Source: Lachnospiraceae bacterium
Lineage (GTDB): Bacteria; Bacillota; Clostridia; Lachnospirales; Lachnospiraceae
Reading direction: 5' to 3'
NCBI GenBank assembly: GCA_022510745.1
Contig: JAFLSY010000006.1
Location: 62,001 to 126,000, forward strand
DNA length: 64,000 nucleotides
Below the pieces are notes generated by a model, which was not told the DNA's origin, did no database searches, and worked only from the letters and a program-made list of their open reading frames with translations. This document shows positions 55,767 to 57,057 of this stretch, one piece after another (the stretch's first letter is position 1; each line of letters begins with the position of its first letter). Position numbers and translations under genes: made by a program.

Positions 55767-56849
55767 ATGGGAAAAGAGGACAAGACTTTTTACGATAGGA
55801 AAATTGTATATTTGGATTATCTGGAGAACGGAGAGAAGATAAAAAATGGCGGTTTTGTAAAATGGGATGTCAGAGGTGAGGATTGCCGTATACAGATACA
55901 TATTCGAGGCTTGTATACAACGGATACTCTGCAGGGAGAAATCAGACTGATTTCCAGAGAGGAAACTTACGGGGCGGACAGAATCGGATTGCAATTTGGT
56001 GCCGGGGAGTATGCTTCCCATTGGAAAAACAGCGATTTGGCGGGGACGGGAATCCCCTATGCGGAATGCGACGGTATTCTGATCAAACTCTCCGATACCA
56101 GAGCATTAAAGGGACAGTGGAGAGAAAGGGCAAGAGAGGAAGAGCATATTCTGCAAGAAAAACAGGAGATGCCTGCAGTGCCGGAACCGATTCAGGAGAC
56201 CGCGGAAGAGATGCTGAAGGCGGCGCAATCTGAAAGAGATGAGACAGCACAGTCGGAAACAGTAATAATAGAAACTACAGAACCGGAAGTAGAAGTGATG
56301 GAAGCTGTTGAGGATGCAGTTTTCGGGGATACAGAAATGGCTCAGGACGAGGACTTAGAAGCAGGAACCGGGGAGGTTTCCGAAACAGAAGATGCCGGGC
56401 AGCTTAAGGAGGTTATTTCCGATCAACAGAGAACGGAGATAGGCGGGCAGCCGGAGACAGAGACGGTCAGACAGCCGGAGACATCCAACTTTCCTCTTTC
56501 CCAAGACAAGTGGGAGCAGTTAGAAAGGATTTATCCTAAAATCCATCCCTTTGGGGATAGCAGAGAGTATCTTTCCGTTACACCCAGGGATTTTGTCGTG
56601 CTTCCAAAACAGTATCAGGAGCTGGTGCAAAACAGCTTTTTGCTGCATGGTTATTATAATTACGGACATTTAATCCTGACAAAAATTGTGGAAGCGGAGG
56701 AAGAACGATACTATCTGGGTGTACCCGGCGCATATTATGACAGAGAAAAGCAGGCCGCCCTGATGTTCGGGTTTGAAGGCTTTGAAGCAGGTACCGACAA
56801 GATGGAAGACGGCGGCTTCGGCTATTACATGAAGCGGGTAGAAATATAG
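55767..56849 (+). CDS. DUF6128 domain protein
   Basis: A 360-residue protein typical of Lachnospiraceae. Residues 1-115 (KTFYDRKIVYLDYLENGEKIKNGGFVKWDVRGEDCRIQIHIRGL) and the C-terminal 110 (PFGDSREYLSVTPRDFVVLP...NSFLLHGYYNYGHLIL...YYLGVPGAYYDREKQAALMFGFEGFE) are conserved; a 140-residue Glu/Thr-rich low-complexity linker joins them. Function unknown; perhaps surface or spore-related. Its stop codon lies in the left copy of a 7-bp direct repeat that borders the palindromic element next door. Confidence 0.75.
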   Translation: MGKEDKTFYDRKIVYLDYLENGEKIKNGGFVKWDVRGEDCRIQIHIRGLYTTDTLQGEIRLISREETYGADRIGLQFGAGEYASHWKNSDLAGTGIPYAECDGILIKLSDTRALKGQWRERAREEEHILQEKQEMPAVPEPIQETAEEMLKAAQSERDETAQSETVIIETTEPEVEVMEAVEDAVFGDTEMAQDEDLEAGTGEVSETEDAGQLKEVISDQQRTEIGGQPETETVRQPETSNFPLSQDKWEQLERIYPKIHPFGDSREYLSVTPRDFVVLPKQYQELVQNSFLLHGYYNYGHLILTKIVEAEEERYYLGVPGAYYDREKQAALMFGFEGFEAGTDKMEDGGFGYYMKRVEI

Positions 56850-56850
56850 G

Positions 56851-57037
56851 GTAACAGTTCAGCCATGCAGAAATGATTATGCGGATTGTCCGTGGGAGCT
56901 TGCTCACAAAGGGTAATCCGCATAATCATTTCTATAGGGCGGACGCCCGTCATGAAATAAGTTGGCGGCAAAAGTGTGCAATGGAAAGTAAAAGGTATAT
57001 TCCGCCAACTTATGAATGGCATGGCTGTACTGTTATT
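56851..57037. mobile_element. MITE-like nested palindromic element, 187 bp
   Basis: Terminal inverted repeats TAACAGTTCAGCCATGC (56852-56868) and GCATGGCTGTACTGTTA (57019-57035): 17 bp with one mismatch. Both sides are bordered by ATATAGG (56844-56850 and 57038-57044), as a 7-bp target duplication would be. Inside are an exact 18-bp inverted repeat (56870-56887 / 56915-56932), a GGGCG-ga-CGCCC hairpin (56937-56948) and an exact 12-bp inverted repeat (56957-56968 / 57002-57013). No reading frame. Could instead be a structured RNA or a bidirectional terminator between the convergent genes. Confidence 0.65.
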
Positions 57038-57057
57038 ATATAGGAGAGGAGCTCGTG

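Follow-up and report, generated by a model that had tools for sequence, protein, structure and literature searches.

A MITE whose ends are of the IS66 type, and whose fold is conserved and strand-specific, is spread widely among hosts of one bacterial family, the Lachnospiraceae. The copy described here occupies 186 bp of the window, the whole 64,000-nucleotide stretch of Lachnospiraceae bacterium DNA that was analyzed. It is best explained as a non-autonomous DNA transposon (MITE) with ends of the IS66 type, which an IS66 transposase would move in trans and whose fold would be selected in single-stranded form, a reading to which we assign a probability of about 0.88. This reading rests on the ends, on target duplications far above the control level, on an empty orthologous site, on dispersed copies found family-wide, on an IS66 transposase gene that neighbors identical ends and on a covarying fold. 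An earlier note had already suggested a MITE that also folds into a multi-branched RNA; the same evidence supports the first part of that suggestion, and covariation together with strand asymmetry lends further support to the second.

Structure of the element and its target duplications

In comparison with its relatives, the MITE proves to begin with GTAAC and to end with GTTAC, and it accordingly spans 56851–57036 of the window (186 bp, GTAACAGTTCAGCCATGC...GCATGGCTGTACTGTTAT). It is composed of the following parts:

56843–56850, no strand: left copy of the target duplication, AATATAGG, in the 8-bp register of relatives with exact repeats
56851–57036, + strand: the MITE, + being the orientation in which G-U pairs outnumber A-C mismatches
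56851–56868, + strand: left terminal inverted repeat (TIR), GTAACAGTTCAGCCATGC, which the right end of the IS66 element in genome G427 matches at 18 of 18 bases
56869–56933, + strand: stem A with its apical hairpin (GAGCTTGCTC), the helix with most covariation
56937–56948, + strand: small GC hairpin, GGGCGGACGCCC
56957–57013, + strand: stem C with a variable loop, its 12-bp exact arms at 56957–56968 and 57002–57013
57019–57036, − strand: right TIR, ATAACAGTACAGCCATGC, which differs from the left TIR at two bases
57037–57044, no strand: right copy of the target duplication, TATATAGG, identical to the left copy at 7 of 8 bases

The earlier note had described a 187-bp palindrome with 17-bp TIRs that differ at one base and a 7-bp flanking repeat. 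The inverted repeats at both ends, the nested repeats and the duplicated flanks are all there, but the element measures 186 bp, beginning one base further out, with the G at 56851, and running to 57036, its TIRs are 18 bp long with two differences, and the flanking repeat is 8 bp long with one changed base. The rest of that description stands as it was: there are two inverted repeats in the interior and a small GC hairpin, the element lies between convergent genes (a DUF6128 gene on the left and a radical SAM gene on the right), and the TAG stop codon of the DUF6128 gene (56847–56849) falls inside the left copy of the duplication. Within the 64-kb window, the pattern TAACAGTNCAGCCATGC (up to three mismatches) is present only at the two ends of the element. 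No transposase gene lies inside, as the room is too small and the overlapping ORFs are all short; because 186 bp cannot encode an IS66 transposase, we regard the MITE as a derivative or passenger and not as an insertion sequence.

The flanks AATATAGG and TATATAGG constitute an 8-bp target duplication of which seven bases are kept, one base having probably been altered after insertion. We adopted the 8-bp register because it follows from the consensus ends of the family and from relatives with exact 8-bp repeats. The 226 loci yielded 122 end pairs, 121 of them with both flanks scored, a set that retains a few doubtful nested pairs (e.g., L068, L130, and L204). The flanking 8-mers were identical in 48 of these 121 pairs and agreed at seven bases in 28 more, so that 76 of 121 matched at 7–8 positions, whereas none of 483 control pairs taken 10–40 bases further out agreed at seven or more of eight. 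The 48 exact duplications had an A+T content of 78%, compared with 54% in their loci.

Conservation and strand asymmetry of the fold

The + strand of the window copy folds with a predicted energy of −97.7 kcal/mol, against −50.2 ± 4.3 for shuffled sequences (z −11.1), and the − strand reaches a z of −12.5 against its own shuffles. For the comparison among copies, we aligned 31 of the 34 window-type elements (183–189 bp; alignment A1), leaving out L107 and L198, which did not align, and L179, a near-copy of L145. On these 31 elements RNAalifold predicted 53 pairs, of which 34 had changed on both sides, and 96.3% of the cells of the predicted structure were paired. The covariation score was 0.391, compared with 0.136 for shuffles and at most 0.087 with slid partners; the slid control is flattering, since the structure was derived from the same sequences, and it is the shuffles and the double changes that carry weight. 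Covariation is strong and goes beyond the controls, as in a conserved structured RNA, and the fold was kept while its letters changed. Rfam returned no family, only three chance microRNA matches far below their gathering scores, and we rejected a known RNA family for want of a match.

Palindromes that matter only as DNA should show about as many G-T as A-C oppositions in one orientation, composition aside, and the observed numbers were unequal. The three helices of the 31 elements contained 54 G-U pairs and 14 A-C mismatches (35 and 4 in stem A), a G-U fraction of 0.79 compared with at most 0.64 when the 3′ letters were dealt anew with composition kept (0.90 vs 0.67 in stem A). Among 54 representatives less than 80% alike, with helices chosen by Watson-Crick pairing, the counts were 96 and 49, and 30 elements were richer in G-U against five richer in A-C; these representatives were drawn from 106 of 223 rows, the opposite-strand, cut-off and weaker rows having been left out by hand, and the orientation of types unlike that of the window came from the model, which could favor G-U. 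The inner helices of 53 long-type elements (180–206 bp), most of them plain in orientation from sequence, gave 94 G-U and 52 A-C. The excess was not significant in stem C (8 vs 6) or in the terminal repeats (11 vs 4; 10 vs 4 in the representatives). Moreover, the p-values of the strand tests are too small, because the elements are related and not independent and because the orientation of the unlike types was set by the model. Taken with these limits, the counts argue moderately for single-stranded folding of the + strand, most simply as RNA, and we infer that the fold is probably selected as a one-stranded molecule, most likely an RNA from the + strand of the element.

The palindromes of the same MITE could instead be kept by template-switch correction between their arms (quasi-palindrome repair), with no selection on the fold, a mechanism that we consider possible but unlikely. 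The arms are very long and near-perfect, in keeping with it, and exchange between arms can act, because one element (L162:1558–1744) carries the apical hairpin of its stem A the other way round from the rest, as if flipped by such an exchange. Nevertheless, arm repair treats both strands alike, yet G-U exceeds A-C both in the aligned elements and in the representatives (54 vs 14 and 96 vs 49). Conservation is also highest elsewhere than in the long arms, the mean identity being 0.88 in the junction and small hairpin, 0.74 in the arms of stem A and 0.66 in loop C.

Terminal sequences and the probable link to IS66 transposases

The ends of the MITE begin with GTAA, as do those of the IS66 family, whose insertions are described in two sources as having 8-bp repeats and a GTAA start (PMC11946415; PMC3281130). 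One of them also states that IS66 ends begin with GTAAGCG (PMC11946415), whereas those of the MITE begin with GTAACAG. A GTAAC start is likewise seen in the IS66 elements of L074 and G427, so the longer motif fails for these IS66 subgroups. In G427, the gene for a protein that matches PF03050 (69.7 bits) terminates 37 bp short of a right end, GCATGGCTGAACTGTTAC, at which 18 of 18 bases agree with the MITE. The left ends of this element, GTAACAGTTCAGCCTTGC, lie at four contig edges and diverge from the MITE at base 15, and three left/right edge pairs have exactly matching 8-bp flanks (GTTCTTTC, AAAAAATA, and CGGAAATC), as expected of three insertions with an unassembled interior. Because contig ends break the element, its length and the pairing of its ends are deduced from the matching flanks. 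A second IS66 subgroup (L074 and L075) has ends GTAACTATTCAGC and exact 8-bp duplications, and genome G006 holds two copies of an 1817-bp IS66 element with one transposase gene, the same ends GTAACTATTCAGC and exact 8-bp duplications. Among the loci examined for ends, which came from the searches other than that with the G427 protein, no full-length autonomous element with identical ends was found save the broken copies of G427. The search for a transposase with the same TIRs, proposed in the earlier note, thus led to an IS66 transposase gene beside an identical 18-bp end, in an element incomplete at contig ends.

These ends point to an IS66-family transposase, and the subgroup represented in G427 is probably the one that moves the MITE. 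Such a DDE transposase, acting in trans, would recognize the MITE by binding to its GTAACAGTTCAGCC(ATGC) ends and would place it in AT-rich intergenic DNA, thereby creating the 8-bp target duplication; the window copy inserted at the DUF6128 stop codon and left the protein unchanged.

We looked for a PF03050 gene in the genome of the window and found none. Across 397 genomes, PF03050 showed no association with the presence of the MITE (33 with both, 52 with the MITE only, 103 with IS66 only and 209 with neither; odds ratio 1.29, p 0.37). The specific IS66 partner is rare, being found in 17 of the 397 genomes at 1e-25 with alignment A2 and in 8 of 260 when the G427 protein served as query at 1e-20, and G427, which carries the matching transposase, had no match to our covariance model R1 at 1e-10 and is absent from its 85 positives. 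We suggest that the relation between transposase and MITE may be old or roaming, with the transposase coming and going. Both the rarity of the partner and the missing association would also suit a different DDE transposase that likewise gives 8-bp duplications. We hold that rival to be improbable in view of the right end of the G427 element, with its 18 identical bases of 18 and its 8-bp duplications, in a comparison of ends made within IS66.

Distribution, empty site and genomic setting

Besides its one full copy, the genome of the window has a truncated one (L002:1501–1608), which likewise lies in a convergent gap. This truncated copy has lost stem C and one end, and it adjoins the stop codon of an ORF that by eye, from its sequence, resembles phosphoglycerate dehydrogenase. 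At a third TIR-like site in this genome (L339), inspection by eye found no element of this kind adjoining. The 187-bp query matched in 8 of 61 genomes, its own included, and the matches reported for a single genome numbered up to 13. Covariance model R1, scored at no more than six places per genome, had matches at 1e-10 in 85 of the 397 Lachnospiraceae genomes. In genome_contigs, the exact 18-mer end was found in at least 120 stretches, most of which bear the name of Lachnospiraceae or of one of its genera in their titles; it was not found in viral_contigs, for which reason carriage by phages was rejected. The same 18-mer occurs in contigs of MAGs labelled Bacteroidetes or Gastranaerophilales (L131, L212, and L214), through either mis-binning or transfer. 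In one genome (G166, L291:480–1007), window-type elements form a tandem row of three at intervals of about 200 bp. Muricomes intestini (L123, L142, L195, L199, and L200) carries a 202-bp family with the same ends and an unrelated interior, and these ends are also found on several other interiors of 68 to 357 bp. The MITE belongs to a large, apparently undescribed family. The count of copies that the earlier note had proposed as a check thus revealed a dispersed multi-copy family, and the single copy conserved in position among relatives, which the note had set against its own proposal, was not found.

The comparison of empty sites, proposed there as well, agreed. In the closest relative, whose radical SAM protein is 86% identical, the orthologous site lacks the element, and the stop-to-stop gap of the convergent pair is 20 bp compared with 208 bp in the genome of the window; once the element and one copy of its duplication are taken out, the window has a gap similar to that of the relative. 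The locus search matched 57 of 61 genomes, and of the 30 loci retrieved from it 29 gave a gap measurement (L282 is without the second gene). Among the 28 relatives measured, 27 had a gap of less than 132 bp. L261, the sole relative outside this range, has a radical SAM–DUF6128 gap of 1366 bp.

On the basis of crude ORF calls, 30 of the 34 window-type elements had genes on both sides and three of the 34 overlapped a called ORF. The 30 comprise 11 elements oriented along and 10 against a tandem pair, five in divergent and four in convergent gaps. No orientation bias towards the neighboring genes was seen among them, and with 11 along and 10 against we rejected a role exerted on those genes through orientation. 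A stationary RNA gene, riboswitch or bidirectional terminator fixed between convergent genes, which the strong fold on both strands and the convergent neighbors of the window copy might suggest, is rejected as very improbable by the empty site in relatives and by the dispersal of the element with target duplications, and it agrees neither with four convergent gaps in 30 and an even orientation nor with an Rfam search that gave chance microRNA matches alone. For the MITE, the role of the fold may instead lie with the element itself, in its transposition, stability or tolerance, or the fold may result from non-selective repair between arms.

Relation to known elements and significance

The Nezha, ERIC, RUP, BOX, and Correia elements are palindromic, multi-copy, intergenic and folding, like the MITE described here, and they have other ends and hosts. 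With the IS66 insertion sequences (TnpC-type transposase, PF03050) the MITE shares GTAA ends, the 8-bp duplication and the 18-bp right end of G427; it differs from them in being 186 bp long and non-coding and in ends that read GTAACAG, not GTAAGCG as quoted in PMC11946415. QMITE1 and the CbsR16-related MITE of Coxiella burnetii are also bacterial MITEs with very stable predicted folds, and some of them are transcribed as sRNAs (PMC5896051). As that source describes them, they belong to one species and have other repeats, and a covariation test is absent from the description (PMC5896051). MITEPsy1 of Pseudomonas syringae is likewise short, with 18-nt TIRs near-identical to those of an insertion sequence, and its transposition was shown (PMC3189936). 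It differs, in the account given there, by an IS5-like assignment that carries a question mark, by a 4-nt duplication and by close copies restricted to the P. syringae group (PMC3189936). Among the literature found, no title or opening of an abstract presents a MITE of the IS66 type.

Finally, we consider it possible, though doubtful, that these MITEs are mobile structured-RNA genes, in which the conserved multi-branched fold of the + transcript is bound by the transposase or by a host protein and is needed for spread or tolerance. If true, an IS66-type DDE transposon would depend on an RNA from its own non-coding passenger. With many copies of one fold under selection, the question of why bacterial MITEs keep elaborate palindromes, for reasons of DNA or of RNA, becomes testable. 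Its presence in 85 of 397 Lachnospiraceae genomes makes the family a common one in a major lineage of gut bacteria, and it accounts for a frequent intergenic repeat that annotators would encounter unnamed.
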